A stretch of 61,902 bases of DNA, taken from a virus. Positions 6,901-50,898 of this stretch are shown one piece after another (position 1 is the first letter of the stretch; each line of letters starts with the position of its first letter). The notes below the pieces were generated by a model that saw only the letters and a list, made by a program, of their open reading frames with translations, was not told the origin of the DNA and ran no database searches. The stretch lies in the IMG/VR virus record IMGVR_UViG_3300048597_000042, positions 1-61,902 of that record; one strand, 5' to 3'. The translations under genes and the position numbers were made by a program.

Positions 6901-9900
6901 AATGTTTTTGTTATTGGCATCCCACGTGCCTCTCTTGTCCACAACTTTCGAGTCGCCGAACCAAGCGCGAAACTCAGGCGAGTTAGTCTGCTCTTCAGAC
7001 AGTGCGCCTTCTTGGGTTGGCGTGTTGGGTCCGAATAAAAACGTCTTTGCTGTTACGCTGTTTGCCGTCTCATCTACAGACATGTCGAGCAAAGAGTCCG
7101 CCGTACGTAGCAGTTCTTCCAGTGCGCTCTTATATGAGCGCCCAAGCCCGAAAATACTCGCGACGATTTCTACAAACCGATCCCACAGAGTTTTTTCTCC
7201 GAGGTTTATATCGGCTAAGAAAACCTGCATTTCTCTATCGGTTAAGCCCCAAGCCAGTACCTCGTCTGGAGTTCTCAGGGCGTTTATAGACCTATTGTAT
7301 ATGTTCTTTTCAAAGTCAGTGAGGGTCCCAGCTTTTACTCTGCCGTTGAAATATTTTACTACTTCATTACGTAGGTCATTAAGTGCCTTAACTGCTGGCG
7401 AGTCTTTATTAAAAAATATATCTAAGGCGGTTGCCGCATGAAGTAGTTCATGGAGCACAGTCTGATAGCGCATACCGGAAGGGTACCCGCTCTGGTTTTC
7501 AATAACGGCAGCCCCATTGAGCGTCAGAGTTAGTACTGGCGCTTTGCTTTTTGAAACTGCCCAGTGGAGTAAGCCCCTCGCACTATACATTTTAACCAGA
7601 CGCCGTTCGCCCGATTGAAGGTCGAACACAAACTCGACACCGCGTTTTTGCATGGCATCGAGCTTGTTTTGTACCTTAGTAGCTATCTCTTTAACGTACT
7701 CGTTAGGCGCGTTATCCACCGCCCACTGGGCTAACTCGGCAAAAGTCTTGCCGGTAAGCTCGCGTTCTATACGCTGCTCTTCGGGGTCGATAGACCAACC
7801 GCCCCCTTCTGCGGCGGCTTGAAGTGTGTTGCTAGAATCACTCCCGTCGCTAGGGCGCAAGCTATTCTCACCCTCCTGCGCGGGGAGAGCTTCAGTTAAA
7901 GCTGCTTCTACTTGAGCTTCGCTGATTCCGTTCTTTACAGCAGCTTGCTTTATAGCTTCTACCCTAAGCCGAGCATAGGCTGGCTTGTTTTTAAGCAGCG
8001 CAAACTTCACTTTCGCAGAAAAAGCGTTTTTCTTAGCCTCTATATCTGTGAGCTTAGCTGCTTTATCCACCCACTTGTCGATACCAGCAGAAGTCAAATC
8101 GATAGCTTTAGGTAGCATAGCGTTCACTTGCCTAAAGTAGTCTGCCGCTACGTCAGGAGCTATGTCTGTTTCGGCGGGTGGCGCACTAGGCGTTGTCGCC
8201 GCAGTTTCGCGCGCAGGTTCCACAGGCGTAGCGGGAGCCGGGGCGGGAGCCGGGGCGGGAGCCGGGGCGGGAGCCGGGGCGGGAGCCGGGGCGGGAGCCG
8301 GGGCGGGCCGGGCTTGCGTAGGCGCGGCAGTGCGAAGAACGTCAGCCCTAGCTTGGGCTGTTTGTGTTTTTGCGGACTCAAAAGCGTTGACTATATCAAG
8401 CAACTGGGTAGCAAGCCCGCCTTGCGTTTTAGCTAGATTGTTTTGCGGTACGCCAAGAGCTGCGCCGACAAAGGCTACTTCTTCTGGAGTTACCAGATCA
8501 GGCTCTTTTGCAAGATTCTTAGCCGCATTAGCGACTCTTTCTGTCAACTCGTTTTGGGCTACTGCTCCAAGTATAGCTGGCCTAACGGCAGTCGGTCTTT
8601 TTTCGTACGCTCGCAGCAGTAATGCTTCCGCACTTAAAGAAGGCGAAGCAAGTCCGTACTTACGCAAGTTAAGGTCGTTAATCAAATTTATGGTTTCATT
8701 AAGCCCTGCTATTGTTTGCTGTAACTCAGACTCAACTTGCTTACGCGGGTCTGCCTTAGACGCTTTAAAAGCCAAAGGATTGCCTGTACCCGCAACCGTA
8801 GTAGGCGATACATTAACAAGCCGAGTAGCAAGAACGTCAGAAAGCTCTTCTATTGTACGAACTCTCTGCGTTGGCGTATTTACGTCTGTCTCTTCGCCTG
8901 AAGTTTGATCCGAAGGAGCGGCGGCTGGCGCTATAGATTCAGCACCGCTCGGGGCCGTAGCATCCACGGCAGCACTGTCAGAAGGCGGCTGTACTGTGGC
9001 ATTCCCAGTAGGAGCAGTAGGCTGCGCAGGAGGTTGTGTAGTAGGCGAGGTTTGCTGAACTGCTTCAGGCTGCGCCATAATCCCTCGGATGCCACCAGCG
9101 CCAGCACCCACTGTGCCGCCAGCCAGAGCGCCCACCAGCGCATTGAAACCGGGACGCACCTCCGCAGCCTGCTGGTCGAAGCCGCCTGCCAGTAATGCGT
9201 TCTGCGTGGCCTGAGCCTGACCGAACTCAGCCGGACCTTCCTGTGCCGCTTCGAGCGGCGCGGTAATTGCTGCTCCTTTCACGCCACGGGCAAGGGCATT
9301 CCCTCCCATCACCATTCGGTTAACATCCATCACTTTTTCAGCAATGGGGACTGCTCCGAGTACTCCGGCGCCTATTGCCAGCGGATCGGTGGTTGCGGCG
9401 CGTGCTACAGTAGTGGCTTGTTCAGGAGTAGCACCTTCTGCGATAGCTCGCTCGTAGGCTTCAATACCAGCCTGTCCGGGAATTGACGCGCCTTCAAGAA
9501 CTGCGGCCCCGGTACCAGCGCGGTTTGATATAGCTTGTCCAACTGAACCTAATGCTTTTACGCGACCAAGAACTTTTAAAGCAAGCGCTGGGCCTACGAA
9601 ACCTGCGCCCATGCCGGCAAGTTCTGACAATACGATAGGGTCAGAAATCAACGTAGCAGCGGCTGTTCCGTAGTTACCAGCATCATACTCTTGAAGGGCT
9701 TTTTGCCACGTAGCATCACGCGCTGCTTTTTCTGCCGGATCGCGGTATTGAAATAACTGCTCTCCAAACTTGTCCACCGCTGCGCCGGCAGACGGCGACA
9801 CAAGGCCGGCTATACCGCCAACAGTAGATACGCCAGCTTGCCCTGCGCTACGCAAGACATTAACGCCCATATCAATAAGGCCAAAATCGTCTCGTGCGGC

Positions 9901-37798: not shown

Positions 37799-37950
37799 GC
37801 CATGGTTGGCGCAGTGCGCGACTTGTAGCCGCCTATAACGTATTACACAATGCACGCATACATATTACGCGTTATCGAAACTATACGGCAAAATTACAGC
37901 GTCATACCAGAAGTGCAGTTCGTCATTCACACACTGTTGCCGAGTCTTCA

Positions 37951-38981: not shown

Positions 38982-39236
38982 ATGCGTTTTTGCAATGAAC
39001 GCGTAGTCAAACACGCCACGATTAGCCCAGCTTATGGTAATGACTACTATAGTGAGCAGGACGCAATCAAGGCGTTTATGGACGGGTCTGGTTTTGTGGC
39101 ACACGATATTGACGGTACAGCGTGGATGGGTGCTTACGTCTGCGTAGCGGACTGCGATCTGGACGCGGTTATCGAGCTGCGCTACAATAAAATGAAATCG
39201 GTGACTGTGCTCTCACCCAAAGGAGTAACCAAATGA
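38982..39236 (+). CDS. First early-operon protein, 84 aa
   Basis: A clear ribosome site (AAAGGAGC) precedes the ATG. The protein is mixed strand and helix (YYSEQDAIKAFMDGSGFVAHDIDGTAWM, LDAVIELRYNK) and is better formed than the following small proteins. It overlaps the repeat protein by 4 bases (ATGA). Being promoter-proximal, it should be the most strongly expressed early product. Function unknown. Confidence 0.75.
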   Translation: MRFCNERVVKHATISPAYGNDYYSEQDAIKAFMDGSGFVAHDIDGTAWMGAYVCVADCDLDAVIELRYNKMKSVTVLSPKGVTK

Positions 39237-39580
39237 ACTCGCCGACACCTGAAGAGGTCGAACGTGGCTTAACGGACGAACATTTTTATGTTCGTTGCGC
39301 TTGGGTTCGCAAAACAGATTTCACTCCTACACTTGAACAAGTCGAACGCGGCTTAACTGACGAGCATCTTGGCGTTCGTCAGGCTTGGAGTTATAGAACA
39401 GATTTCACCCCAACACCCGAACAAGTCGAACGCGGCTTGACTGACGAACATTGGTTTGTTCGTTACGCTTGGGCTCTTAGGAAAGATTTCACTCCTACAC
39501 TTGAACAAGTCGAGCGTGGGTTGGCCGACAAAGACTGGCCGGTGCATCGAGCATGGCTTCGTAGAGCTGAGAACACATGA
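39233..39580 (+). CDS. Protein made of four 28-residue HEAT/LRV-like repeats, 115 aa
   Basis: The whole protein is four copies of a 28-residue unit: TPTPEQVERGLTDEHW, then a VR-AW segment and RKDF. The pattern EQVERGLTD-x3-VRxAW is that of helical variant leucine-rich or HEAT-like solenoids, which bind proteins. The DNA repeats are close enough (84-bp period) to change copy number by recombination. Overlaps both neighbours by 4 bases. Role unknown; perhaps a host-protein binding scaffold. Confidence 0.8.
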   Translation: MNSPTPEEVERGLTDEHFYVRCAWVRKTDFTPTLEQVERGLTDEHLGVRQAWSYRTDFTPTPEQVERGLTDEHWFVRYAWALRKDFTPTLEQVERGLADKDWPVHRAWLRRAENT

Positions 39581-39837
39581 CTAACAGGTTTGTATATCTG
39601 AACGATGCCGGCTGCGTAAGCAAAATATCTTGCCCAACAGACGATTGGGCAGCACTACGCGCATACAGTGCGCTTAAAGATTGTAGGAGACATGTGCGCG
39701 TAGTCGGCGTTATTACGTATCAGATAGGTTCAAATTTCCTGACTAATAGCTCAGACATAAGATCCCGCCATAATTCGAGCTTTATCCGCGCTCACTGGGC
39801 ATCCATAGCTTTCTATCGCACGGAGGTTATCTTCTAG
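39577..39837 (+). CDS. Small early protein, 86 aa (array member 1)
   Basis: It overlaps its neighbours by ATGA and TAGTG. It has an acidic N-terminal half (VYLNDAGCVSKISCPTDDWAALRAYSALKDC) and a Ser/Arg/Asn-rich second half, and lacks the clear RSW block of later members. It marks the left edge of the array. Function unknown. Confidence 0.6.
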   Translation: MTNRFVYLNDAGCVSKISCPTDDWAALRAYSALKDCRRHVRVVGVITYQIGSNFLTNSSDIRSRHNSSFIRAHWASIAFYRTEVIF

Positions 39838-40058
39838 TGAAGCATTCTGTGCGGTACGTGATATCTAGCTCTCCAATATCTACGGTTGATGCTTGGGCGT
39901 GGTGCAGTGTGCAATGGGAGGTAGGAGGCTCGTGCAGCGGCTGGGTCAAGTTCCACTGCTGTAGTGTAATAGAGATTAGGAAGCAAACACGCACAAACGC
40001 TGGTATTGAAGTAGGAGGTTTTTCTGTGTATGACTCGTCCCGTATGCCCCCGTACTAA
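39837..40058 (+). CDS. Small early protein, 73 aa (array member 2)
   Basis: A GTG start shares a base with the upstream TAG (TAGTG), and its TAA shares a base with the next ATG. Sequence is Ser/Cys/Trp-rich with short strands (VRYVISSSPISTVDAWAWCSVQWEV). Too diverged to align beyond the family's general composition. Confidence 0.55.
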   Translation: MKHSVRYVISSSPISTVDAWAWCSVQWEVGGSCSGWVKFHCCSVIEIRKQTRTNAGIEVGGFSVYDSSRMPPY

Positions 40059-40312
40059 TGAAAATACAAACGAAACCAGAGACAGAGACTAGGATAGTCA
40101 AGCAAGCGCGCGGTACAATTTCGGCTAGTTATCACTTAAATACCACATCTTGCATACTTCGCAACCAGAACCCGTACGCAACAAGGTCTTCAATAAGACA
40201 CGGGCGAACCACTTTCTTTACTTCATGCAGCAAACTTAAGTCAAGCATGGATACTTTGTATGGTTTCTCTTTTGGGTTCGATTTTTTCAATAAGACAAGG
40301 GTGAAGCCGTGA
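40058..40312 (+). CDS. Small early protein, 84 aa (array member 3)
   Basis: Basic, Ser/Thr/Asn/Arg-rich product (TISASYHLNTTSCILRNQNPYATRSSIRHG). Junctions TAATG upstream and GTGA downstream imply coupled translation. The opposite strand here also has a long open frame, but coupling and context favour this one. Confidence 0.5.
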   Translation: MKIQTKPETETRIVKQARGTISASYHLNTTSCILRNQNPYATRSSIRHGRTTFFTSCSKLKSSMDTLYGFSFGFDFFNKTRVKP

Positions 40313-40533
40313 AGTTCGCAGAGCCGATGGCTTATCAAGGCAGATTTTGCTTCGGAGTATCCAAGATAGGCAATAACCAACGATCCAGCGTCCTCGGCGT
40401 ACCGGCTGCTCACATGTCAAAAACAGGCTTTATATCATCGTGCGGGCCCGATATTACGTCTAAGTATGTGGAGCCAGTAGGCCACTACTATGGATATAGA
40501 TGGTTTAGGCAAGCGTGGATACTCTGTCGATGA
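40309..40533 (+). CDS. Small early protein, 74 aa (array member 4)
   Basis: A GTG start overlaps the preceding stop (GTGA). Gly- and aromatic-rich (YQGRFCFGVSKIGNNQRSSV... VGHYYGYRWFRQAW). The RWFRQAW end may be a degenerate version of the RSW block. Function unknown. Confidence 0.55.
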   Translation: MKFAEPMAYQGRFCFGVSKIGNNQRSSVLGVPAAHMSKTGFISSCGPDITSKYVEPVGHYYGYRWFRQAWILCR

Positions 40534-40766
40534 AGACACTCCATACTACATCGCTCAAGACAGGTTCGCACTCATCTGTTTGTGTAAGAAGTAGAATACG
40601 CTGTGACATAGATGGTAAACCTTTTGCTACTATAAGTAGCCAAGGCAGCGTAGGTCTGATCGCTGTAAAAAATCGATATCATATCTGCGGCCACATTAGT
40701 CTCGGTCGAAACTCCTTCAATCCCGCCCCCGTCTATGGCTATAGAAGGTCTTTGCAGAACGTATGA
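40530..40766 (+). CDS. Small early protein, 78 aa (array member 5)
   Basis: The ATG at 40530 overlaps the preceding TGA (ATGA), which is preferred to an earlier in-frame ATG at 40515. Ser/Arg/Val-rich strands (HSSVCVRSRIRCDIDGKPFATISSQGS) and a conserved-looking ICGHISLG stretch. Function unknown. Confidence 0.55.
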   Translation: MKTLHTTSLKTGSHSSVCVRSRIRCDIDGKPFATISSQGSVGLIAVKNRYHICGHISLGRNSFNPAPVYGYRRSLQNV

Positions 40767-41035
40767 AAGCTCCGCTTAAAATAGCCCACTATTTAACTTC
40801 AGAGAGTATTTCGTATGTAGGCTTTCACATACACGCCGGCATATATACGAAATGCGCTGCGCATGCTACAGAATCGGCAATATACACCCGCGTCAACCCG
40901 AATACAGAGTCGCGGGTTTTACAAGAAGACATAGGGTCTATTTGTTTAGGCGACGTAGGGCCGTATACACAGGGCCGTAGATTTGACGTAAGCGAGTTTG
41001 ATATCGGCGACAAGGGTGATCGCTATGCCGCATAA
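40763..41035 (+). CDS. Small early protein, 90 aa (array member 6)
   Basis: It starts at an ATGA junction and is acidic toward the end (FDVSEFDIGDKGD), with an N-terminal half of short strands (SYVGFHIHAGIYTKCAAHATESAIYTRV). This member reads like a complete domain and lacks the RSW block. Function unknown. Confidence 0.6.
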   Translation: MKAPLKIAHYLTSESISYVGFHIHAGIYTKCAAHATESAIYTRVNPNTESRVLQEDIGSICLGDVGPYTQGRRFDVSEFDIGDKGDRYAA

Positions 41036-41240
41036 GGGCTCTTCGTTTTCTACGAATATGGACGCCTCAAAAGGGTCTTATTCTTCAATAAAGGGGCATA
41101 GGCAGTCTCGCATTCATCATGTAAGTAGTGATGGAATGCATTTTCGTCGCAGCATCGTGCATGACAATTACCGTAGTTGGATAGACAATGAAGTCGTGGC
41201 AAGAATACGCCTAAAGTACAGGTCTACGATAAACCAGTGA
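41025..41240 (+). CDS. Small early protein, 71 aa (array member 7)
   Basis: The chosen ATG lies 11 bases inside the preceding gene. It is Ser/His/Arg-rich with YRSWIDNEVVARIRL near the C-terminus, the first clear instance of the family's RSW-I/V block. Function unknown. Confidence 0.55.
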   Translation: MPHKGSSFSTNMDASKGSYSSIKGHRQSRIHHVSSDGMHFRRSIVHDNYRSWIDNEVVARIRLKYRSTINQ

Positions 41241-41248
41241 GTAAGTAA

Positions 41249-41473
41249 ATGCGGAAACTTGAAGACTACCGCTCAGGAAGATTTACAGTACTTTTTCTAC
41301 ATAAAATTATGTGGGAGTACGAGACTTCTATATACTGCGGCGTGCATCAAGGGCACTACAATGAGTCTTGGATATCGGGAAACAGAAAAACGTGGTTAAT
41401 TTGCGACGGATTTACTGTTTTTGCCTCTGATTTACAAGGCGACCGCTCACATAGTTGCAGTAGGGTAGTATAA
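41249..41473 (+). CDS. Small early protein, 74 aa (array member 8)
   Basis: Starts 8 bases after the preceding stop. It has YNESWISGNRKTWLICDGFTVFASDL, resembling the family core in strand pattern but with a different sequence at the RSW position. Function unknown. Confidence 0.55.
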   Translation: MRKLEDYRSGRFTVLFLHKIMWEYETSIYCGVHQGHYNESWISGNRKTWLICDGFTVFASDLQGDRSHSCSRVV

Positions 41474-41474
41474 C

Positions 41475-41711
41475 ATGAAACTCGTTCTCTCAGAAGCGAA
41501 TTGCGGGGCGCTGCATGTGGTCTCGGGCATCACTTACGGGGACGGCACTATCAAGTTCCACAGACATGAGTCCCAAATACAAATAGGCCCAATAACGTCG
41601 TTAGTTTGCGCTAACATAAAAAGTAGTAGGTCAGGCAGCCGTTCATGGATACGATACCGCGATGTCACGCTAGTGCATCTGTGGGAGACTTCGGGTCTGA
41701 TGCATACGTAA
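41475..41711 (+). CDS. Small RSW-family protein, 78 aa (array member 9)
   Basis: Begins MKLVLSEANC, the N-terminal strand shared by most members, and contains SGSRSWIRYRDVTLVHLWETSG near the end, the family's C-terminal block. Ser/Arg-rich middle. Separated from the previous gene by one base. Confidence 0.65.
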   Translation: MKLVLSEANCGALHVVSGITYGDGTIKFHRHESQIQIGPITSLVCANIKSSRSGSRSWIRYRDVTLVHLWETSGLMHT

Positions 41712-41730
41712 GATTTCAGAGGTAAGTTGA

Positions 41731-41952
41731 GTGAAAATAGTACTGAGTACAGCTCGCCCGTTTAGCGTAAATAAATTTAGTACTGCTTCCGCCATCAAAA
41801 TAAGTAGAAGTATTATACTTTGCTATTCGTATAGGTCAGCACAAAAATCGCACTGCGGAAGCCATAGCAGATCGTGGGTATCAGATAGGGACCTGTGTCA
41901 GGTTGTCTCCAGTAATGGGCTTTGGGAGTCTTCGGGGATTGGCTACGTATGA
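41731..41952 (+). CDS. Small RSW-family protein, 73 aa (array member 10)
   Basis: A GTG start after AGGTAAG; begins MKIVLSTA and ends with HSRSWVSDRDLCQVVSSNGLWESSG, the family block. The stop overlaps the next ATG (ATGA). Ser, Lys and Tyr-rich middle strands. Confidence 0.65.
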   Translation: MKIVLSTARPFSVNKFSTASAIKISRSIILCYSYRSAQKSHCGSHSRSWVSDRDLCQVVSSNGLWESSGIGYV

Positions 41953-42170
41953 AACTGATCCTTAGAACGGCCGCAGGTGAGCCGCTGCCGCTGCGCGTGC
42001 GCGGTAGATCGTCCGTGCTCTATTACTCAGATTCTTGGGTGTTTGATGAGAACGGACTTGGATATATGGAAAAGTACTCTACCGCAGATTCCTATTCTAG
42101 AAGCCATATTAACGGTGCAGGTATAGTCAGTTTTAAGCTGATGGAAATATCAGAGGTAGATTGCGAATGA
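41949..42170 (+). CDS. Small RSW-family protein, 73 aa (array member 11)
   Basis: The ATG at 41949 overlaps the upstream TGA and gives MKLILRTA, whereas a longer reading from 41922 would break this pattern. The middle and end (SRSHINGAGIVSFKLMEISEVD) match the family, with SRS-H in place of RSW and the EISEV ending. Confidence 0.65.
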   Translation: MKLILRTAAGEPLPLRVRGRSSVLYYSDSWVFDENGLGYMEKYSTADSYSRSHINGAGIVSFKLMEISEVDCE

Positions 42171-42385
42171 AACTGATCCTTAAATCAACTATATCTCACG
42201 ACGGCTACTGTAGCTTTTCTCACATAAATACCAAGAGTAGAGTTTCTGTTTGGGCTACTGCGGATAGAAAAAGCTATTCGTATGTAATCAATCACATCCG
42301 GTCTTTTATCGGTTCTAGAGACACTACTTGTCTTGTAAAACACCCAAGAGACAGCCTGCTAGAAATATCAGAGATAGATTGCTAA
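42167..42385 (+). CDS. Small RSW-family protein, 72 aa (array member 12)
   Basis: Starts at an ATGA junction (42167) with MKLILKST and ends LLEISEIDC, clearly related to member 11 in its end. The RSFIGSRDTTCLV stretch corresponds to the RSWV-x3-D block. Its TAA shares a base with the next ATG. Confidence 0.65.
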   Translation: MKLILKSTISHDGYCSFSHINTKSRVSVWATADRKSYSYVINHIRSFIGSRDTTCLVKHPRDSLLEISEIDC

Positions 42386-42598
42386 TGAAACTGATTCTTA
42401 TATACAGCGCAGCAAGCAGAGGAAAACCGTTCTCATCAGCAAGCTACATGTCAGAAAGGCAGAGTTTACGCCGCTTCTGATATACGCAAGTGTAGCAACG
42501 GGCGATCTAGTAGGTCGTGGATCATTTTCGCAGACACGGCGTCTATCCAGCAGTCCGTGGGTTTCTATTTGGAAATCGGATCGGTAGAAAACATATGA
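42385..42598 (+). pseudogene. Frameshifted RSW-family copy
   Basis: An ATG sharing a base with the preceding TAA opens MKLILIYSAASRG, but the frame stops at about 42480. In the +1 frame, from about 42452, translation continues as QKGRVYAASDIRK and then RSSRSWIIFADTASIQQSVGFYLEIGSVENI, a complete family C-terminus ending at an ATGA junction with the next gene. A one-base indel near 42450 explains this. Programmed shifting or a sequencing error cannot be excluded. Confidence 0.7.
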
Positions 42599-42843
42599 AG
42601 TATATCCTTACAACATGCCTATCTGGTGACGGCATAGCTTTCTCTATATACTATACACTGAACATGCGCGCTAGTATGTCTATTAGGTCTACTATAAACA
42701 CTGGCAGCCGGATTCATACTGCTTCTGAGACCCGCAAAATTAATTACGCGCGACGAAGTAGATCGTGGGTTAGGTCCGCAGATATAGTGTCAGTTGTACA
42801 GGCCGGTTCTCGTCTGCAAATTAGCTCAATAAAAAACATATGA
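42595..42843 (+). CDS. Small RSW-family protein, 82 aa (array member 14)
   Basis: Start at the ATGA junction (42595), giving MKYILTTCLSGDG. The C-terminus RRSRSWVRSADIVSVVQAGSRLQISSIKNI is a full family block. Middle strands are Ser/Arg/Thr-rich (SMSIRSTINTGSRIHTASETRK). The next gene begins with nearly the same eight residues, so the two are recent duplicates at the 5' end. Confidence 0.7.
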   Translation: MKYILTTCLSGDGIAFSIYYTLNMRASMSIRSTINTGSRIHTASETRKINYARRSRSWVRSADIVSVVQAGSRLQISSIKNI

Positions 42844-43079
42844 AATATATCCTTGCAGCATGCCTATCTAATGGCATGGAGAAACGCTCCAACGTTAAAG
42901 TAAGAGACACATTTAATTCCATATCAATGATAAAGTGCGCATCTTCGTTTCACCGAGTGTCTAGATTAAATAAATTTTGCGGAAAACAGTACGATAGGTC
43001 GTGGGCTAGTTTCACAGACACAACAGGCATGCGAGTTTCGGGTTTTCGTTTAGAAATAAGCACGATGAAAGTAACATGA
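42840..43079 (+). CDS. Small RSW-family protein, 79 aa (array member 15)
   Basis: Opens MKYILAACLSNG, close to the previous member, and closes YDRSWASFTDTTGMRVSGFRLEISTMKVT. The middle is unrelated to the previous member's, so ends are conserved while the core diverges. ATGA junctions at both ends. Confidence 0.7.
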   Translation: MKYILAACLSNGMEKRSNVKVRDTFNSISMIKCASSFHRVSRLNKFCGKQYDRSWASFTDTTGMRVSGFRLEISTMKVT

Positions 43080-43315
43080 GCCTATATCTTGAGGCATTAT
43101 TGATGCGCGAAGCGAAGGCTTCTTCAGAACTGTACATAGGAACTACGCACTATCGTAGAGCAATACTAAAGACTCAACACGCATACCGCACCGTATCTAA
43201 GTTATGCACTCGTGGCGTAAAGATCTACGATAGGTCGTCGGCTGTTTCCACGGATACAGCAAGTATCAAAAGCAGCGGGTTCTGGATTTTAAGGCACTGC
43301 ACGATCATTTATTAG
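43076..43315 (+). CDS. Small RSW-family protein with altered C-terminus, 79 aa
   Basis: MSLYLEALL replaces the usual start strand. The block is YDRSSAVSTDTASIKSSGFWILRHC, with Ser for Trp in RSW. The end departs from LEISS, apparently where a remnant of another copy joins. It may be decaying. Confidence 0.55.
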   Translation: MSLYLEALLMREAKASSELYIGTTHYRRAILKTQHAYRTVSKLCTRGVKIYDRSSAVSTDTASIKSSGFWILRHCTIIY

Positions 43316-43396
43316 AACGTGGGTTAGTTTTCGGGATATTGTCGGTATATACGCCAATAGATTCTATGTAGAAATCAGCTCAGTGAAAATTGTATG
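43293..43396 (+). pseudogene. Headless remnant of an RSW-family gene
   Basis: In a frame different from the overlapping gene, the DNA encodes FIRTWVSFRDIVGIYANRFYVEISSVKIV and stops in an ATGA junction. This is a family C-terminal block without an N-terminal half or start codon, as left by a deletion or unequal crossover. Confidence 0.7.
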
Positions 43397-43633
43397 AAAC
43401 TTGTTATTAGTGGATGCGGAACAAACAGAGGAAGAACTTTTGCCGTGCTGTATATAGTAGGCAAACGCTTTTCTAAGTCTTCAGTAATGGTCGGCCCAAG
43501 AAGTTACGACTGTTCTCAACTGCGAAAATACAACGCACGTCCACGTAGTATATCCTGGGTTGATGTTACGGATGTTGTTGGCATGGAAGTAAATGGGTTT
43601 CTTTTAGAAATCAGCTCAGTGAGAATTGTATGA
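43394..43633 (+). CDS. Small RSW-family protein, 79 aa
   Basis: Begins MKLVISGC and ends SISWVDVTDVVGMEVNGFLLEISSVRIV, one of the clearest family members. The C-terminal codons TTTAGAAATCAGCTCAGTGA are shared almost base for base with the remnant upstream. ATGA junctions on both sides. Confidence 0.7.
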   Translation: MKLVISGCGTNRGRTFAVLYIVGKRFSKSSVMVGPRSYDCSQLRKYNARPRSISWVDVTDVVGMEVNGFLLEISSVRIV

Positions 43634-43869
43634 AACTAATTATAAAAAGAGCCGCACCCGCCGATGGAGAAACTTGTTCAAGAATCTGTACGTATTGGCT
43701 CGTATGCGATGAATCAATCATTACCACTAGGCAGATACATAGAGACGCTTGCCGGATACTAATATCTAACACAGCAGCATCGGATAGAACTTGGATACGT
43801 GGCATCGATACTTTAGCCATGCGTTTAGATCGTGGGTTACGGACAGAGATTTCATCGGTGAAAATATGA
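43630..43869 (+). CDS. Small RSW-family protein, 79 aa
   Basis: Begins MKLIIKRAAPADG and ends SDRTWIRGIDTLAMRLDRGLRTEISSVKI. The C-terminal DNA also holds the family word AGATCGTGGGTT in another frame, suggesting mosaic joining of two copies. Two Cys in the N-terminal half. Function unknown. Confidence 0.68.
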   Translation: MKLIIKRAAPADGETCSRICTYWLVCDESIITTRQIHRDACRILISNTAASDRTWIRGIDTLAMRLDRGLRTEISSVKI

Positions 43870-44102
43870 ACCCAGCGCTGAAAGAAGGCATGACAGGCTT
43901 TTCTGTAACGATTGAATCTTGGGTTTGTATAGACAAGCGTAAATTCTTATGGACTTCGAGCATAGGTCAACTACATGCGTCTGTCGCTAATGCGCGTTAC
44001 GCTGGGTATTACACGACGTATGTAGGCCGAAGTAAAACCGGTAGTTTTTTAGTTCGTAAGCACAAAACACCTATTATGGTTTGTGAAGTTTCGTGTGTTT
44101 AG
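43866..44102 (+). CDS. Small early protein, 78 aa (array member)
   Basis: Starts at the ATGA junction (43866); an earlier in-frame ATG at 43791 lies inside the previous gene. It has GMTGFSVTIESWVCIDKRKFLW and ends KTPIMVCEVSCV, similar in layout but without the RSW block. Followed by an AGGAGG site for a tiny membrane protein. Confidence 0.62.
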   Translation: MNPALKEGMTGFSVTIESWVCIDKRKFLWTSSIGQLHASVANARYAGYYTTYVGRSKTGSFLVRKHKTPIMVCEVSCV

Positions 44103-44114
44103 TAGGAGGCTTGT

Positions 44115-44219
44115 ATGCTAGACTTCTTGTGTAGTGTTCTAGGTTTCGTTTTCTACTTTATAGAATTTTTTGTAATGCTAGGGCTAGCACTCTGGCTTAT
44201 GCACAAAGAAGAGTTGTAA
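44115..44219 (+). CDS. Tiny membrane protein, 34 aa
   Basis: A strong ribosome site (AGGAGG) precedes the ATG, and almost the entire product is one transmembrane helix (LGFVFYFIEFFVMLGLALWLM) with a short charged end (HKEEL). It interrupts the family array. It could be a small inhibitor of a membrane protein or an early lysis or exclusion peptide; not determinable. Confidence 0.65.
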   Translation: MLDFLCSVLGFVFYFIEFFVMLGLALWLMHKEEL

Positions 44220-44225
44220 GCCGCT

Positions 44226-44459
44226 ATGAAAATGATATGTAAGTTCTACATAAGACGCGGATATCGTTTTTCTAAAGTAAACGACTGTAAAGATGTAGAC
44301 ATAATTGGTTTTAGCCACGGAGATTATACGTGGCGGACACGCAATTCGTTTAGAGGATGGGTTTGCCATCTTGACGCCAGAATCACTGACGTAACATCAC
44401 TGCAAATAAATGGAGAGTGGTTTGAATCGTCAAGCATTATCGAATACGATTACTTCTAA
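44226..44459 (+). CDS. Small RSW-related protein, 77 aa (last of array 1)
   Basis: Begins MKMICKFYIRRGYRFSKV and contains FRGWVCHLDARITDVTSLQINGEWFESSSIIE, a diverged version of the family's RSWV-x3-D-x-G-x2-LEISS block. Acidic and aromatic end. Array 1 stops here. Confidence 0.65.
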   Translation: MKMICKFYIRRGYRFSKVNDCKDVDIIGFSHGDYTWRTRNSFRGWVCHLDARITDVTSLQINGEWFESSSIIEYDYF

Positions 44460-44662: not shown

Positions 44663-45220
44663 GTGACTTACAGCCATGCAGAAAGCATAACTGTAGACGG
44701 CTTAGAATGCAATTTGCGTATATATCAATCCGATAACCGAAGCGTTGAGGACTACGCTTGCAAAACAAAAAGTAAGAAAGCATGCTACGAGGTAGTTATT
44801 GGAAAAGATCGCAGCGGTTCGTATGTTGTTGACGCCCGACAGATGGTTAGTGACTTTCGTGAAACGGGTATGTCTGGCTGGGAAGCGCACGTCGCAACAC
44901 TTAACCATATAAACTACCTCAAGGCTTTGTATAACGGCAACATAACAGAGTACATAATGCAGGCCGAATTTATCGACCCTCTACACAACGAGTTTATTTC
45001 AGACGATTCTGAGTTCTTTGAATACGGGCATTATTACTGCCTAGATGCGGAAGGTTTCGGTAGGACGGGGGAAGTCACGTATAACGAAAACAACGCCATC
45101 GCGCTATGCAAAGACGCGATAGGTAAAGCCATAAGAGACGCCATCGATAACAGAGCATGGCATTTATGCCACTGGTTTCGTGCCAAAATGGGCAACCGTA
45201 AATTTTTAGGATATCTATGA
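44663..45220 (+). CDS. Hypothetical early protein, 185 aa
   Basis: A GTG start lies 2 bases after the upstream stop with AAGGAG in range. The protein is mixed alpha/beta with several Tyr, Cys and acidic residues and no transmembrane segment (EVVIGKDRSGSYVVDARQMVSDFRETGM). It overlaps the next gene by ATGA. No family recognised. Confidence 0.75.
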   Translation: MTYSHAESITVDGLECNLRIYQSDNRSVEDYACKTKSKKACYEVVIGKDRSGSYVVDARQMVSDFRETGMSGWEAHVATLNHINYLKALYNGNITEYIMQAEFIDPLHNEFISDDSEFFEYGHYYCLDAEGFGRTGEVTYNENNAIALCKDAIGKAIRDAIDNRAWHLCHWFRAKMGNRKFLGYL

Positions 45221-45579
45221 AGACTTCAGCTAAAAAGGCATCCCGAGCTTTTCTGTTGCACAATTTGTTTGGCACTAAGCGGGACTCTTGCACTAGCAGA
45301 GGCAACGCACTCTATTCGTACACCACTGCAATAGCCGCATGGAAGGGGCCTATTCTGATAGTGAATGAATCGAAGTACAGCGCCACTACTTCGAGGCACC
45401 AACACGCCCTTCGTTTGGAACTATCCTATTCCGCTCCGGAATTAGTTATTAAGGTAAACGATATCAGGATGGGTTCCGACAGACACGACTTAATCAATGC
45501 AGCTCTGGAAGCCGTCGATAAGATGGACAGTAGTGCTTACGATGTAGACACGATTAAATATGACCTGATGAATGGATAA
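45217..45579 (+). CDS. Hypothetical early protein, 120 aa
   Basis: The start is at an ATGA overlap. The product has a basic N-terminus (MKTSAKKASRAFLLHNLFGTKRDSC) and strands near the middle (LRLELSYSAPELVIKVNDI) with a helical end. It closes early operon 1 before a GC-rich intergenic element. Function unknown. Confidence 0.7.
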   Translation: MKTSAKKASRAFLLHNLFGTKRDSCTSRGNALYSYTTAIAAWKGPILIVNESKYSATTSRHQHALRLELSYSAPELVIKVNDIRMGSDRHDLINAALEAVDKMDSSAYDVDTIKYDLMNG

Positions 45580-45703: not shown

Positions 45704-46057
45704 ATGCAGGTCTTTGTGATGGTTAGTGACGGCAGGTTTTTCTACAGCGGGTATTTTCGTCTTTCTGACGAATGGGTTGAAGAGGTCGAGATTGGCGGTA
45801 TTACCGACAAATTTGCCGCACTGCACTGCATCGGAAGTTCAGACAAAATCATACTAGAAAACGTTGCTGTACATGACACGGTTGCTGTACGGAAAGACGG
45901 GAAGTCTATCGGCAAAGTGACAATGCGCTTCGATAACATGGTAGTTAAAGCCTGTACAGCGACCACAGATTTTGAGCTGGTGTCTCACGAAGAGTTCGAT
46001 CAGATCCGTGACAGTTCGTATTCAACTACTTCAGAAGAGGGGAAGTTTCATGCTTAA
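45704..46057 (+). CDS. Hypothetical protein, 117 aa, coupled to MoxR-type ATPase
   Basis: A beta-rich protein with runs such as QVFVMVSDGRFFYSGYFRLSDEW and DTVAVRKDGKSIGKVTMRFDNMVVKA. Its end overlaps the start of the ATPase gene by 8 bases, so the two are translated together and may work together. Function unknown. Confidence 0.72.
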   Translation: MQVFVMVSDGRFFYSGYFRLSDEWVEEVEIGGITDKFAALHCIGSSDKIILENVAVHDTVAVRKDGKSIGKVTMRFDNMVVKACTATTDFELVSHEEFDQIRDSSYSTTSEEGKFHA

Positions 46058-47114
46058 TGATATCACAGGTCACGCGGCGCTTATTGAGCGTCTTATGGTT
46101 GCGGCTACGGCCTGCAAGTCGCTTATTATTGCCGGCCCTAACGGTGTTGGCAAGACCAGCGCAGTGCACCAGCTTGGTTCTTTGATGGGGCGTAATGTTG
46201 AGACGTTTCTTGGGCCGGCAATTAGCCCTGAGACGTTTGGCATGAACGTTCCCAGTAAGGGTTTCGATCAGTACCGGTACGTGTTCAACAATCGGTTCAT
46301 GGATGCGCCGGAAAACACGATCTTCCTGATTGACGAATACAGTTTTATGCCGCCAACAATCCAAGCGTTGACTGGCGAGTTGACCGCCAACAAGACCATC
46401 AATGGTAAGCCGCTGCCGAAAGGCTCGATGATTGTTCTTACCGCCAATCGGGTCGGCGACACTGCCGGTGTCCACCCTGTTAGTCGGCTTATCAACACCC
46501 GCTGTCCGACGATCACATACTACGGCCCTACTGAGGCTGAGTACATCGGCGACGACAAAACGGCGGGCTACATGCGAACCCACGGCCATCCGGCTGTTGT
46601 GACGGCGCTTTCCTACAATCCTGAAATGATCCATTTTCTTAAGGGAGCGTACCCGGCTGTTGAACAGAAGGCCGATAAGCTCCCTACGCATCGTGGATGG
46701 GTCGAATGCAGCGCGGAACTTAAAGCAGCCGAACTGCTGCTTGCTGCCGGTAAGATCAAGTCTCTCAATCGCATGGGAATTATTGCTAGCCATGTCGGGG
46801 ACAAGGCGGCAGCAAAGTGCGAAGCCATCATTCGTCTCTGGCAAGAACTTCCTGATTTCGGGAAGATTGAAGTTTCGGAGCTGGGCACGATGGCTATTCC
46901 GAAGAACGCCATTGTTCGTAGTTTGATTGTAAGTCAGGTAGTAGATTTGGCAAGAGAGCCCGTTGTTGAACGGCTCTCGCCATTTATTGGCCGGTTTCCG
47001 GCTGAGGAGCAGAAAGTGATGTGGACGCAGTTGATCGCCAAGTCTACTCACTTCAGTAGCACTAATGCGTTTCAGAAGTTCAGCAGTTCAGTTGGCCAGT
47101 ACCTCAATCACTAA
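46050..47114 (+). CDS. MoxR-type AAA+ ATPase, 354 aa
   Basis: The ATG at 46050 overlaps the upstream stop; an earlier reading from 45972 would run through another gene. Walker A is GPNGVGKTSA at about residues 29-38; Walker B is IFLIDEYS near residues 91-98, followed by GELTANKTINGK and sensor 1-like IVLTANRVGD; a helical lid region follows. Short AAA+ proteins of this kind usually act as metal-chelatase-like chaperones for a VWA partner, which is present two genes downstream. Phages with such pairs are known; the substrate is not. Confidence 0.85.
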   Translation: MLNDITGHAALIERLMVAATACKSLIIAGPNGVGKTSAVHQLGSLMGRNVETFLGPAISPETFGMNVPSKGFDQYRYVFNNRFMDAPENTIFLIDEYSFMPPTIQALTGELTANKTINGKPLPKGSMIVLTANRVGDTAGVHPVSRLINTRCPTITYYGPTEAEYIGDDKTAGYMRTHGHPAVVTALSYNPEMIHFLKGAYPAVEQKADKLPTHRGWVECSAELKAAELLLAAGKIKSLNRMGIIASHVGDKAAAKCEAIIRLWQELPDFGKIEVSELGTMAIPKNAIVRSLIVSQVVDLAREPVVERLSPFIGRFPAEEQKVMWTQLIAKSTHFSSTNAFQKFSSSVGQYLNH

Positions 47115-47151
47115 CGCAGTACCTCAACCACCAACGCAGGAGTACACAAAC

Positions 47152-47493
47152 ATGCTCAAGAACATCAACGTAGGCAACGTGCAAGAAGAGATCGGTCCAC
47201 TCAACGTCGGCGACCCGAACATCGGCGACTCGATCTGGATTGACACCGATCGGTTCTTTTACATCGGTCGTTACCGCGGTCGTAGTGAGGACGGTCAGTT
47301 CTGGATTCTTGACCGTGCCAGCATGGTGATCCAGATGGGCATTGTCACCAAGGCAACTACCGAAGGTACTTCGTCCCTTAACGAAGTCCATCCGTTTGCC
47401 ACGCCGTTCTATGCCGTCCGCTACAGCACCGTTACTGGCTGGCGGGTGTTCCCGCATGAGCTGCCGAGCCAACCAATCAGCCGAAGCTCGTAA
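47152..47493 (+). CDS. Hypothetical protein in the MoxR/VWA operon, 113 aa
   Basis: The ATG at 47152 has a good site (GCAGGAG); upstream in-frame codons overlap the ATPase gene. The protein is strand-rich (SIWIDTDRFFYIGRYRGRSEDGQFWIL). Codon use is GC-richer than in the tiny gene arrays, suggesting higher expression. It ends just before a perfect palindrome. Function unknown. Confidence 0.72.
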   Translation: MLKNINVGNVQEEIGPLNVGDPNIGDSIWIDTDRFFYIGRYRGRSEDGQFWILDRASMVIQMGIVTKATTEGTSSLNEVHPFATPFYAVRYSTVTGWRVFPHELPSQPISRSS

Positions 47494-47504
47494 GATCGTA
47501 GCCT

Positions 47505-47534
47505 GTATAGCGGGAGACTAGTCTCCCGCTATAC
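47505..47534 (+). terminator. 30-bp perfect palindrome between genes (weak terminator or processing hairpin)
   Basis: GTATAGCGGGAGACT and its exact complement abut (47505-47534). The RNA would form a very stable hairpin, but no U run follows; the next ribosome site starts within 5 bases. It may slow polymerase or serve as a stability or cleavage element. Confidence 0.5.
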
Positions 47535-47546
47535 TTCGGAGGACGC

Positions 47547-47792
47547 ATGTGGTATACTAGCGATATTGTAGTTGAAGATGACTTCGACGGTACTAAGGTA
47601 GCCTATTGCATGTCAGCTATCTGCTACAGCGTAGCTTCTGCGGTTTCTTTTATTAGAGCCTACGACGGACTCTGCGGGGAAGCCGTGCTCGTAGATGAAC
47701 GAGGCCAACTCGATGCGCCAATTCTAGCGAAGCAAGACAACCCAGTGCCGGCAACCGGCACCGGCATCACACGCATAAGATACTGGAGCTAG
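47547..47792 (+). CDS. Hypothetical protein, 81 aa
   Basis: ATG preceded by GGAGGA. Acidic start (TSDIVVEDDFDGTKVAYCM), hydrophobic helical middle (CYSVASAVSFIRAYD) and a Gly-rich end. Located between the palindrome and the VWA/peptidase gene, two bases upstream of the latter, so probably part of the same system. Confidence 0.68.
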   Translation: MWYTSDIVVEDDFDGTKVAYCMSAICYSVASAVSFIRAYDGLCGEAVLVDERGQLDAPILAKQDNPVPATGTGITRIRYWS

Positions 47793-47794
47793 TA

Positions 47795-48925
47795 ATGTAC
47801 AACGAATTTACTAAGGCTTTGTTTGCTGTGTTGCAGATCAACCCTGTCGTGTACGGGTTTTGTAAGCTGCTTCCGTTAGAAATGTCTGAGGACATTCCGA
47901 CTGCGGCCCTCAATGGCCGAGTTGTAAAAATCAACCCAAAATTCTGGAGCGATCTTGATACTGATTCAAGAGCGTTCGTCATTGCCCATGAAGCCATGCA
48001 TATCGCATGGGATTTCTTCGGGCGGTTAGGTATGCGGAACAAGATGATTTTTAATGCCGCACAAGACCTAGTCATTAACGAGTTTTTATCTGCCAACAAC
48101 TTCAAGTTCACAGGCAATTACGATTTAATTACAGCCAAAGATTTCCCTGACTTGCAGTACGACTCTAATCGGCATTCAAGCGAAGTTGTCTACGACTGGC
48201 TTATTCGCAACAGGCCGAATCTCGCGAAGCAGATGGCCGATAAGGTCTTGGATGGTTGTGGTCAAGAACCCCAGCCCGGTGATGGTGGCCCTCTCACCCC
48301 GCAGGAGGTCGAGGATTTGCGTATGGCGGTGCAGGGTGTTATCGTCGGTAGTCCTCCCGGAACGCTGCCTAGCGAGCTTGTACGGGCCGTAGAATCGGCA
48401 TGGGTGCCGGCCCACGACTGGCGCACTGAACTGTCCAGATACTTCAACCAGCTAGCGCCAGATGACTACAGCCTTAAAAAGTTCTCTATGAACAACCTAG
48501 CTGTGACAGGGGCGCTTACGCCTACGTTGAACACTCCCGGCCTTACTACTATCGGGGTTGTCTTCGATACCAGCGGGTCTATGTCAGACCTGTATAGCGA
48601 GGTAGTAGGCCATGTCCAAGAAATACTCAGTCAAATATCCGTGGCTAAAGTCATCCGGATTGACGCCGATACAAACGTCGCCTTTGAAGAAGAGACCACA
48701 GGCCCCGGCCTTGTGGCTACTGACTTTCGATTCCATGGAGGCGGCGGTACTTGTTTCAGAGAAGCTATCCAACGCATGGAGCATTATAGCCCTGACGTGG
48801 TGGTGTATATCACTGACGGTCACGGAACTTTTCCAGACAATCCTCCACCGTACCCGCTAGTCTGGCTCGACTTGTTGGGCACTGTTGAGTACCCATTCGG
48901 GGATGTGGTGCGATGCAAAACCTGA
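47795..48925 (+). CDS. VWA-like metallopeptidase domain protein (DUF2201-type), 376 aa
   Basis: The N-terminal part carries HEAMH (about residues 65-69), an HExxH-type zinc site following AFVI, and the C-terminal half has a VWA fold with MIDAS motif DTSGSM near residue 259 and later TDGHGTFPDN. This combination is the DUF2201 plan, found beside MoxR ATPases. The ATPase three genes upstream is the likely partner. Together they could remodel or inactivate a host protein. The catalytic state is not shown; the zinc motif is intact. Confidence 0.82.
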   Translation: MYNEFTKALFAVLQINPVVYGFCKLLPLEMSEDIPTAALNGRVVKINPKFWSDLDTDSRAFVIAHEAMHIAWDFFGRLGMRNKMIFNAAQDLVINEFLSANNFKFTGNYDLITAKDFPDLQYDSNRHSSEVVYDWLIRNRPNLAKQMADKVLDGCGQEPQPGDGGPLTPQEVEDLRMAVQGVIVGSPPGTLPSELVRAVESAWVPAHDWRTELSRYFNQLAPDDYSLKKFSMNNLAVTGALTPTLNTPGLTTIGVVFDTSGSMSDLYSEVVGHVQEILSQISVAKVIRIDADTNVAFEEETTGPGLVATDFRFHGGGGTCFREAIQRMEHYSPDVVVYITDGHGTFPDNPPPYPLVWLDLLGTVEYPFGDVVRCKT

Positions 48926-49218: not shown

Positions 49219-49443
49219 ATGTTCGACTGCAAGCCACCGCATTTCAAAGTGATGCGTTCTGAAATAGTAAATTCGCGGGCTTGCACTGCGAGTTCAGTAT
49301 GTTTACGGGTATCTACAGACTATTGGGAAGAGCTATACCATTCAACAGTACGGCATCGACTAACAGGCAGCCTTGCTTCGCTTCCTACCGGTTTTAAGTC
49401 TATGATTTTTACAAGATCGGGGTCATGGATAACGTACTTATGA
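49219..49443 (+). CDS. Small protein MFDCKP type, 74 aa (array 2)
   Basis: Starts MFDCKPPHFKVMRSEIV, an opening repeated almost exactly by the next gene, so the two arose by duplication. Ser/Thr/Arg-rich with a final strand (GFKSMIFTRSGSWITYL) resembling the family's C-terminal GSW block. It immediately follows a tRNA gene. Function unknown. Confidence 0.6.
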   Translation: MFDCKPPHFKVMRSEIVNSRACTASSVCLRVSTDYWEELYHSTVRHRLTGSLASLPTGFKSMIFTRSGSWITYL

Positions 49444-49467
49444 CGATGCAGGTGTGAGGTAGGTACT

Positions 49468-49725
49468 ATGTTCGACTGCAAGCCGGCGCACTACAACGTC
49501 TTTCGGTCTAGTATACGACTACTGCATACAAGGTCTATTTCAAGTTGTGTGACTATAAAGACTGTTAGGCAGCTCATAGTATACGGGCACTATTCAGCGA
49601 TATTGTTTGATCCTCAAACGACCAGCGGTATATCAAACACTTATGCTGGCCTTAAAAGCATAATTGTTGGAACGAATGCATCATGGAAAGCAAGCAGGCT
49701 GCTGACTCCTCCCCGACACCGGTAG
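49468..49725 (+). CDS. Small protein MFDCKP type, 85 aa (array 2)
   Basis: MFDCKPAHYNVFRSSI is the duplicate opening. The middle diverges wholly and the end is basic (ASWKASRLLTPPRHR), with GLKSIIVGTNASW matching the first copy's GFKSMIFTRSGSW. A hairpin (ACCGGTA/TACCGGT, 49718-49740) overlaps its stop. Confidence 0.58.
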   Translation: MFDCKPAHYNVFRSSIRLLHTRSISSCVTIKTVRQLIVYGHYSAILFDPQTTSGISNTYAGLKSIIVGTNASWKASRLLTPPRHR

Positions 49726-49740
49726 GGTGCCTGTACCGGT
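49718..49740 (+). terminator. Hairpin at the end of the second MFDCKP gene
   Basis: ACCGGTA and TACCGGT pair around a 9-base loop. No U run follows, so it may be a processing or attenuating hairpin instead of a full terminator. Confidence 0.4.
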
Positions 49741-49746
49741 CACTAT

Positions 49747-49962
49747 ATGCCTACGGTTAAAGCGCTAGATGGGGCGTTCTTCAATGATTCACTACGGTCA
49801 GCACGCCTATCTGTATGGGTCACAAGCTACGCTTTCAACAGAAGGTACATGCTTTCAAAAGTAGACCAAGGATACACTAGAGGTAGCATAAAGCTCGTAG
49901 ACGGATTAATAGAGATAAGATCCGAAACCGACTACTCTCCGTGCACATGTATCTGCATATAA
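49747..49962 (+). CDS. Small hypothetical protein, 71 aa (array 2)
   Basis: Ser/Arg/Tyr-rich sequence with a strand pattern like the family (ARLSVWVTSYAFNRRYMLSKVDQ) and GLIEIRSETDY near the end, which recalls LEISS. Cys-rich tail (CTCICI). It lies between two hairpin/tRNA elements. Confidence 0.5.
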   Translation: MPTVKALDGAFFNDSLRSARLSVWVTSYAFNRRYMLSKVDQGYTRGSIKLVDGLIEIRSETDYSPCTCICI

Positions 49963-49967
49963 TCAAT

Positions 49968-50052
49968 GGGGCTGTGATGAAATCGGTAAACATAGCAGAC
50001 TTAAAATCTGCCGGCTCCCGCCTTGAGGGTTCGAGTCCCTCCAGCCCCACCA
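49968..50052 (+). tRNA. tRNA-Leu (UAA)
   Basis: An 85-base class II tRNA: acceptor GGGGCTG/CAGCCCC, anticodon stem GCAGA/TCTGC around CTTAAAA (anticodon UAA), a long variable arm (CGGCTCCCGCCTTGAG), a TTCGAGT T loop and encoded CCA. It would decode UUA. Confidence 0.94.
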
Positions 50053-50064
50053 CATAGGCGCTGT

Positions 50065-50340
50065 ATGAGAAGTCGGATAGTAAAGCGGAACGGCGATAAG
50101 TCCCTACCTTTCAGCATATTTCTAGAGAGTAGGGTTGTTGGGAAGCAAGAAACGCTTATTAAATTTCATAACGAGGAGCATTTCAGATGGCAATATCAGT
50201 ACATAGTTTCGAGGCTTTTAAACGAAGGGCCTCAGAAGCGTCGGACTCCAAGACGCTTGGGCAGAAATTTATGGAAGAGTTTTACGAAGCCGATCCGAGA
50301 GTTTGCAAAATGCGCGATGCGCAAGATGGGTCTAAGCTAG
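50065..50340 (+). CDS. Possible small basic protein, 91 aa, overlapping next gene
   Basis: An ATG 12 bases after the tRNA opens MRSRIVKRNGDK, followed by family-like strands (FSIFLESRVVGKQETLIKF). The second half overlaps a better-supported gene in another frame and is very Arg/Lys-rich, so only the first half may be ancestral. Uncertain. Confidence 0.35.
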   Translation: MRSRIVKRNGDKSLPFSIFLESRVVGKQETLIKFHNEEHFRWQYQYIVSRLLNEGPQKRRTPRRLGRNLWKSFTKPIREFAKCAMRKMGLS

Positions 50341-50432
50341 CAGACATACGGCGCGATATAGAAAACTGCACCAACCCAACGACTCTGTATTGGAAGTTAG
50401 TCTCAAACAATCTAGTAAGCATGGCAAGGTAA
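50187..50432 (+). CDS. Hypothetical helical protein, 81 aa
   Basis: GAGGAG lies at the right distance from the ATG. The protein is helical and charged (EAFKRRASEASDSKTLGQKFMEEFYEADPR) with normal composition, unlike the array proteins around it. Function unknown. Confidence 0.68.
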   Translation: MAISVHSFEAFKRRASEASDSKTLGQKFMEEFYEADPRVCKMRDAQDGSKLADIRRDIENCTNPTTLYWKLVSNNLVSMAR

Positions 50433-50434
50433 TT

Positions 50435-50692
50435 ATGGGCATTGTTTCGTTGTCAAGCTACAAAACTTCGGCAGGAGTTTTGAGGTACAGAACGTCTATA
50501 AAAAATACTAAGAGTCGCTACGCCTACTTTGTAAATTCGAGAGCGTCCGGCCATAGCTGCGCAACCCTAGCACCAAATAATAAAAGAAATACGAAGTCGG
50601 CGTCTGCTTTTATGTCTTGTGTGATACTATCAGACTTGACGTTGTACTCTAAGCAGTTAACTGCCCGCTATATAACGCAGATACGCCTATGA
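50435..50692 (+). CDS. Small Ser/Asn/Arg-rich protein, 85 aa (array 2)
   Basis: The ATG at 50435 follows the upstream stop by two bases. It is Ser/Thr/Asn/Lys-rich (TSIKNTKSRYAYFVNSRASGHSC), with the general texture of the RSW family but without a clear block. Overlaps the next ATG as ATGA. Confidence 0.55.
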   Translation: MGIVSLSSYKTSAGVLRYRTSIKNTKSRYAYFVNSRASGHSCATLAPNNKRNTKSASAFMSCVILSDLTLYSKQLTARYITQIRL

Positions 50693-50898
50693 TATTCTGG
50701 GTTTCAGAAACTAGCCGCCATAGTAAAACTCGCGTGATCTGCCACCCACAACTATCAGTGATTAACGGTACTATGATAAAAGATAGATTTCAACTGTCTC
50801 AGTTCGTTAAACACATGAACGGTGAGATCGGATTGCGTATGTTTCGTAAAAGTTTGTATCGGAAAACCGGCAGATTCACGACTTTATATACTTCATGA
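50689..50898 (+). CDS. Small basic protein, 69 aa (array 2)
   Basis: Starts at an ATGA junction and ends at another. Basic and aromatic, with FQLSQFVKHMNGEIGLRMFRKSLYRKTG. Function unknown. Confidence 0.55.
   Translation: MIFWVSETSRHSKTRVICHPQLSVINGTMIKDRFQLSQFVKHMNGEIGLRMFRKSLYRKTGRFTTLYTS

Follow-up and report, generated by a model that had tools for sequence, protein, structure and literature searches.

A lineage-specific bank of tiny, diverged paralogous genes at the head of a phage operon

Introduction

Why should a phage carry a long file of tiny, diverged paralogous genes? The question is raised by positions 39577-44459 of the IMG/VR virus record IMGVR_UViG_3300048597_000042, which was analysed over its whole length of 61,902 bases (the window). 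Here 21 tiny units are packed together, comprising 12 proven members of a family called RSW and nine tiny companions, with 19 of the units present as full-length open frames. The window ends in a direct terminal repeat of 127 bases and is therefore most likely a complete phage genome. The bank of tiny, diverged paralogues is real and translated, it is specific to this lineage, and the family is undescribed. Where phages amplify genes against host defence, the known cases are mainly recent gains in copy number. This array looks like what such gain leads to over a long time, with at least a dozen copies kept in one coupled operon and diverged almost beyond recognition, and with a separate set in a sister phage.

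Organization of the array

The open reading frames (ORFs) of the array are about 70-90 codons long, lie on the same strand and are nearly gapless from 39577 to 44102, with a separate frame at 44226-44459. Successive frames overlap through ATGA or GTGA junctions at 39577, 40309, 40530, 40763, 41949, 42167, 42595, 42840, 43076, 43394, 43630 and 43866, or share a single base in TAATG or TAGTG junctions at 39837, 40058 and 42385. The longest chain of ORFs of at least 60 codons has 12 frames, or 14 when the two genes that precede the array (38982 and 39233) are counted, compared to one on the minus strand and at most three in 2000 first-order Markov sequences of the same composition. The Markov test treats ORFs as independent, whereas the units are homologous, and the evidence for open frames therefore rests on the frame-phase, dN/dS (nonsynonymous to synonymous substitution ratio) and neutral-drift tests described below. 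Tandem Repeats Finder reports only the 84-bp repeats of gene 39233 in this region; because it sees none of the array copies, these are far diverged.

Membership in the RSW family was defined by a profile built from five seeds, at 41475-41711 (78 amino acids, aa), 42595-42843 (82 aa), 42840-43079, 43394-43633 and 43630-43869 (79 aa each), which was searched against every stop-to-stop frame in the genome and then iterated. The profile adds seven units, four of them in the first pass. These are 41731-41952 (73 aa, GTG start, E=7e-5); 43076-43315 (79 aa, with a diverged end, E=4e-5 in frame 43010-43312 and a DNA alignment to 42840); 42385-42598, a broken copy with a stop at 42480 after 31 codons and the rest in another frame (42395-42595, E=7.5e-11, with DNA alignment to 42595 and 43394); and 43315-43397, a remnant that keeps the 3' third and has no start (frame 43293-43394, E=2e-7). 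Iteration adds 42167-42385 (72 aa, ending LEISEIDC), the separate member 44226-44459 (77 aa) and, weakly, the diverged 41949-42170 (73 aa, ending EISEVDCE), which shares with 42167 a 30-bp end that is 87% identical and in the same codon phase. The 12 units have in common a start MK[LY][IV][IL] and/or an end block R-S-W-x4-D...G-F-x-L-E-I-S-S, and the profile matches demonstrate their common ancestry. Differences at the three codon positions are.46/.27/.52 at the start of the units,.59/.55/.66 in the core and.55/.48/.66 at the end.

The nine companions were placed in the array mainly by the chain test. Eight lie upstream: 39577-39837 (86 aa), 39837-40058 (73 aa, GTG start, TAGTG junction, no similarity detected), 40058-40312 (84 aa, TAATG junction), 40309-40533 (74 aa, GTGA junction), 40530-40766 (78 aa, ATGA junction), 40763-41035 (90 aa, ATGA junction), 41025-41240 (71 aa, its first 11 bases within 40763) and 41249-41473 (74 aa). 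The ninth, 43866-44102 (78 aa), is the last coupled ORF and lacks RSW similarity. Compared with RSW by hhalign, the eight ORFs of 39577-41473 and 43866 each give a probability below 3%, which is noise level. A weak group-level signal may nevertheless tie some of the upstream ORFs to RSW: against shuffles that preserve residue class, 41025 matches the RSW profile at p=0.004, 40763 at p=0.037 and 41249 at p=0.07, and a profile of the array in the related phage L003, described below, matches 40763 (p=0.007), 39577 (p=0.008) and 40058 (p=0.010).

The original prediction had described a coupled array of about 20 RSW paralogues reaching to 44459. Its tiny genes of 70-90 codons with ATGA, TAATG or one-base junctions are borne out by the ORF coordinates and the chain of 12-14 frames; its shared start and RSW...D...GF.LEISS end led from five seeds to seven further units; and the middles that it called hardly alignable are indeed where codon-position differences are highest. 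The coupling holds through 44102, but 44226 is a lone member beyond a membrane-peptide gene. There are about 20 tiny units, but only 12 are demonstrable members of the family. The frameshift in 42385 and the truncation of 43315 are not mentioned in the prediction.

Translation and selection

Ten ungapped DNA matches between units were picked without regard to frame, and all ten fall in the same codon phase. The predicted frame has the highest residue similarity and the fewest stops among the frames compared. In alignable blocks dN/dS is 0.60 in frame (95% confidence interval 0.38-0.96, approximate because the compared pairs share units) versus 1.26 and 1.12 when the remaining two plus frames are read. 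Neutral drift at the estimated divergence would leave a unit open in 6% of cases; 10 of 12 units are open (P=2e-11). The conserved serines of the EISS block are encoded by AGC in some copies and by TCA or TCG in others, and the switch between AGY and TCN codons needs two base changes, which supports conservation of serine at the amino-acid level. Given the frame-specific constraint, the open frames and the serine codon switches, the array proteins are very probably made in the predicted frame, with weak purifying selection acting on the ends of the RSW units.

Good Shine-Dalgarno sequences are found in the two genes before the array, 38982 and 39233. The array genes are without good ones, suggesting that their translation most likely proceeds by reinitiation at the overlaps. 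Most of the products are basic, with isoelectric points of 9-11. Serine and isoleucine are raised in the array, leucine, proline and glutamine are lowered, and GC is low at first codon positions.

Tiny-gene sets in related phages

Close relatives were sought in IMG/VR with the terminase, MoxR, VWA, helicase and polymerase proteins, each of which recovered the same few. They are of two types in four records, L002 and L003 being nearly identical and L004 and L005 likewise. Both types keep, upstream of MoxR, a membrane-peptide gene, which in the window encodes about 34 aa behind a strong AGGAGG (44115-44220; syntenic counterparts in L003 and L005), and the small gene that follows it. In none of the four records does an array precede the membrane-peptide gene. 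The RSW profile finds no match in these records, and a direct search of IMG/VR with one RSW member also returned none.

The phage of L003 (IMGVR_UViG_3300044939_000015) is 83% identical to the window in terminase, 64% in MoxR and 71% in the SNF2-type helicase. It has a set of its own: at 1184-2739, on the minus strand, seven tiny ORFs stand head to tail right after genes for tRNA-Met and tRNA-Leu, and ORFs 1184, 1404 and 1634 are clear paralogues. This array resembles that of the window in gene size, in head-to-tail packing and in being rich in serine, arginine and isoleucine, but it occupies another locus, at tRNA genes, and has no significant pairwise or profile similarity to the window array beyond a weak group signal. 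Tiny ORFs also occupy the space between the window's two tRNA genes and the stretch behind them (49219-50898), including a paralogue pair, 49219 and 49468, in which both products start MFDCKP, and they occur among four tRNAs in L004. In about 50 loci of more distant relatives, tiny tandem paralogues were found only in pairs, never three or more together.

The original prediction also proposed duplication followed by fast selection. Duplication and strong divergence are well supported by paralogy, the broken copies, the syntenic absence from relatives and the different array of L003. The dN/dS of 0.60, which covers the alignable blocks, indicates weak purifying selection there and lends no support to fast selection. 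The only sign of adaptive change is a hint in a relative rather than in the window. L004 and L005 differ by eight single-nucleotide polymorphisms over 12.5 kilobases (kb), and three of these eight, a small number, fall in one 228-bp ORF (L004:7882-8109), where all three change an amino acid. This ORF sits between tRNA-Arg and tRNA-Leu and carries an RSW-like NRSWI.

A separate observation in L004 is a 60-bp inverted repeat (6975-7034 and 7245-7304, 98% identical), also found in L005, both arms of which, on opposite strands, code for the start MIRKYSQSRIVSKGRIF. Judging from the sequence, inversion at these repeats would swap the rest of the small protein, although no inverted form was seen.

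The tiny ORFs were also compared as a group, by scoring profiles against shuffles that preserve the residue class at each position. The RSW profile scores below 0.05 on 6 of 28 non-member tiny ORFs (Fisher p 1.6e-4) and the L003 profile on 6 of 21 (Fisher p 8.8e-4), whereas none of 11 neighbouring ordinary genes scores so. When two phages supply the profile and the third is searched, a tiny ORF comes first among about 1840 ORFs in both ways tried, with best E of 0.006 and 0.03, and with a profile of the window plus L003 the top rank among another 2932 ORFs again goes to ORF 7882 of L004/L005. In these cross-phage and cross-locus comparisons no single match is significant alone. The results are suggestive of one hyper-diverged superfamily across phages and loci, with shared compositional habits as an alternative source of the signal.

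Possible functions of the bank

The explanation that we favour, at roughly even confidence, is that the array is a bank of early genes which evolves by birth and death and whose mostly basic products interact with the host, probably in counter-defence. Serial tandem duplication of one gene, with products of about 75 aa, would have been followed by strong divergence and loss. The array would be expressed early, since it heads the rightward operon and is preceded by 1.3 kb of intergenic DNA, and would be read as one translationally coupled operon, with ribosomes presumably reinitiating from each stop to the overlapping start. Each copy would then most likely bind and block one target in the host, probably a nuclease of a defence system or some other protein that acts on RNA or DNA, and the variants together would cover a host range that keeps changing. 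That the proteins interact with the host is indicated by where the genes lie, how small they are, how they turn over and how each phage has a set of its own; we infer the counter-defence or host-range role from the positions, at the operon head and at a tRNA cluster, and from the evolutionary pattern.

Several results weigh against this explanation. Positive selection is undemonstrated, the RSW cores being too diverged for dN/dS. Codon scores of the array lie between those of true genes and of wrong frames, and the content of alanine, cysteine, histidine and glutamate is near that expected of random DNA. Both AlphaFold2 models, made from 12 and 6 sequences, have very low confidence (predicted local distance difference test, pLDDT, 40.0 and 41.4). 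Searches of array members against Pfam, PHROG and PDB gave nothing above noise and no match to a known counter-defence protein. Near-random composition, intermediate codon scores and failed structure models would also fit proteins that arose recently or function weakly.

PADLOC, whose models describe defence rather than anti-defence, likewise found nothing relevant in the array, and no description of paralogous tiny-gene arrays in phages was found in the open-access literature. The original prediction that no named system has this form holds as far as Pfam, PHROG, PADLOC and PDB reach. A reverse transcriptase (PF00078) is absent, and the locus is therefore no diversity-generating retroelement. 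Weak tblastn matches to Caulobacter phages and to Salmonella phage SPFM12 were set aside, with E of at least 3 and no array in the SPFM12 surroundings.

It is unlikely, though worth serious thought, that the array is near-neutral coding filler, duplicated passively in a capsid that tolerates the DNA, its frames kept open so that translation shields a long early transcript from Rho-dependent termination while the proteins do little. Near-random residue composition, weak codon bias, little constraint on the cores and low first-position GC would all suit such filler, as would the lack of a folded model and the fact that the relatives manage without the array. Shielding, however, demands only open frames and not conserved residues, and the end block is conserved, by the in-frame dN/dS, by the serine codon switches and by the retention of RSW...D...GF.LEISS in most copies. 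Another reading is that the junction block acts as RNA or DNA, for example as a structured RNA, a protein-binding repeat or a recombination site, with the ORFs as a by-product. The best-conserved DNA does span gene junctions (48 bp at 87%), but RNAalifold finds no shared base pair in 10 junctions, a search of the array against Rfam gives nothing, and substitutions follow the coding frame. Words that might be DNA-binding sites, such as TAGGTC, are enriched mostly in one codon phase and were rejected as candidates. The frame-specific constraint largely refutes a nucleic-acid element, which we consider very improbable.

Two further proposals accept the proteins and differ in what they do. Tiny ORFs lie among tRNA genes in all three phages, some with weak similarity to RSW or to the L003 array, and the basic isoelectric points of most array products would suit a superfamily that targets tRNA metabolism or the anticodon nucleases of the host. 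The main array of the window is, however, 5 kb from the tRNAs, and accessory genes in general tend to gather at tRNA clusters, such that a tRNA-linked function seems quite unlikely. The products may instead be small beta proteins that assemble, as hetero-oligomers or surface decoration, into a modular set that is structural or associated with the virion; their diversity would then mirror the partners in assembly and not the targets in the host. The secondary structure in the unreliable AlphaFold2 models is beta-rich, and many paralogues are retained together and co-translated. Against this, the array is on the replication or early strand, away from the leftward virion genes, sister phages lack it, and no tail or capsid family matches; we regard a structural set as distinctly improbable. 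A broader form of the favoured host-interaction bank would have this phage lineage keep founding private banks of tiny coupled genes, at the operon head or a tRNA cluster, from one hyper-diverged superfamily, as a fast-renewed standing repertoire of inhibitors against host defence and an undescribed class of protein. We regard this extension as rather doubtful.

Two known systems offer comparisons. TifA of phage T4 is a small RNA-binding protein that also binds and inhibits the defence RNase ToxN, and its gene undergoes tandem amplification under selection (PMC9391042, PMC10853763). The array proteins may act as TifA does: the array likewise holds tandem copies of a small accessory phage gene, and RNA binding would fit basic proteins. 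In T4, however, tifA copies are a recent gain in selected phages, whereas the array has about 12 old, strongly diverged and retained copies, and no array sequence matches any known family. The comparison is one of behaviour and not of membership. In phage T6, SegB drives the amplification of tRNA and anti-defence loci (PMC13096335), which is similar in that accessory genes are amplified in tandem, also at a tRNA cluster. It differs in that the array copies are diverged paralogues rather than identical repeats and in that the window genome has no GIY-YIG endonuclease (PF01541), a search that was positive in 12 of 14 control genomes.

Should the members prove to be inhibitors, the array would be a ready-made library of undescribed anti-defence proteins, and how phages make new proteins quickly could be learned by comparing the banks. 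If they are not, it would be a clear natural case of open coding sequence with little constraint on content. In either case, standard annotation and family libraries are blind to it.

Genome setting and neighbouring genes

The terminase and polymerase of the window are about 29-37% identical to those of phages of Proteobacteria, among them the Pseudomonas phages Rollin and KPP25 and the Rhizobium phage RHph_TM3, which are distant kin. Virion genes (terminase, portal-like, tail) run leftward and occupy about 4-37 kb. On the rightward strand, from 38,982 on, lie the array, a MoxR-type ATPase with a DUF2201/VWA pair, the two tRNAs, an SNF2-type helicase, a family-A DNA polymerase and a PD-(D/E)XK nuclease, followed past the record ends by a DNA ligase at 2.2-3.1 kb. 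The MoxR-type AAA ATPase and the adjoining DUF2201 metallopeptidase-like/VWA protein lie at 46056-48925, and the pair is kept in the relatives.

The element GCGAGACTATACGGCGAA is repeated in the divergent intergenic region before the rightward operon, with two or three copies in relatives (L003:7640-7810, L004:1037-1095, L005:2701-2760) and one degenerate copy near 37881 in the window; it is possibly a promoter or operator. The first gene of the operon (38982-39236), identified by its ORF and codon score, encodes an acidic protein of 84 aa with normal codon usage. The second (39233-39580) encodes a HEAT-like protein with about four 28-aa repeats, seen as a tandem DNA repeat of period 84 and as a Pfam HEAT match at the cut-off, and its stop overlaps the first start of the array. 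The same 28-aa repeat matches a repeat stretch in a very large leftward-strand protein (2546 aa) of the relatives L018/L021 (L018:7364-15004), of which the window has a 2106-aa counterpart.

The small gene at 45217-45579, in the same early operon, belongs to a family with the motif SYxTAIA...YSxTTSKHQ (phrog_4264, phrog_5643), which heads larger proteins in other phages (L009-L013). RSW resembles this family by eye and was considered as a branch of it, but the two have no profile-profile relation (hhalign probability 0.1%). At the operon head of L005 (3488-3830), a small P-loop kinase-like gene is broken by an in-frame stop and a deletion; the gene is intact in L004.

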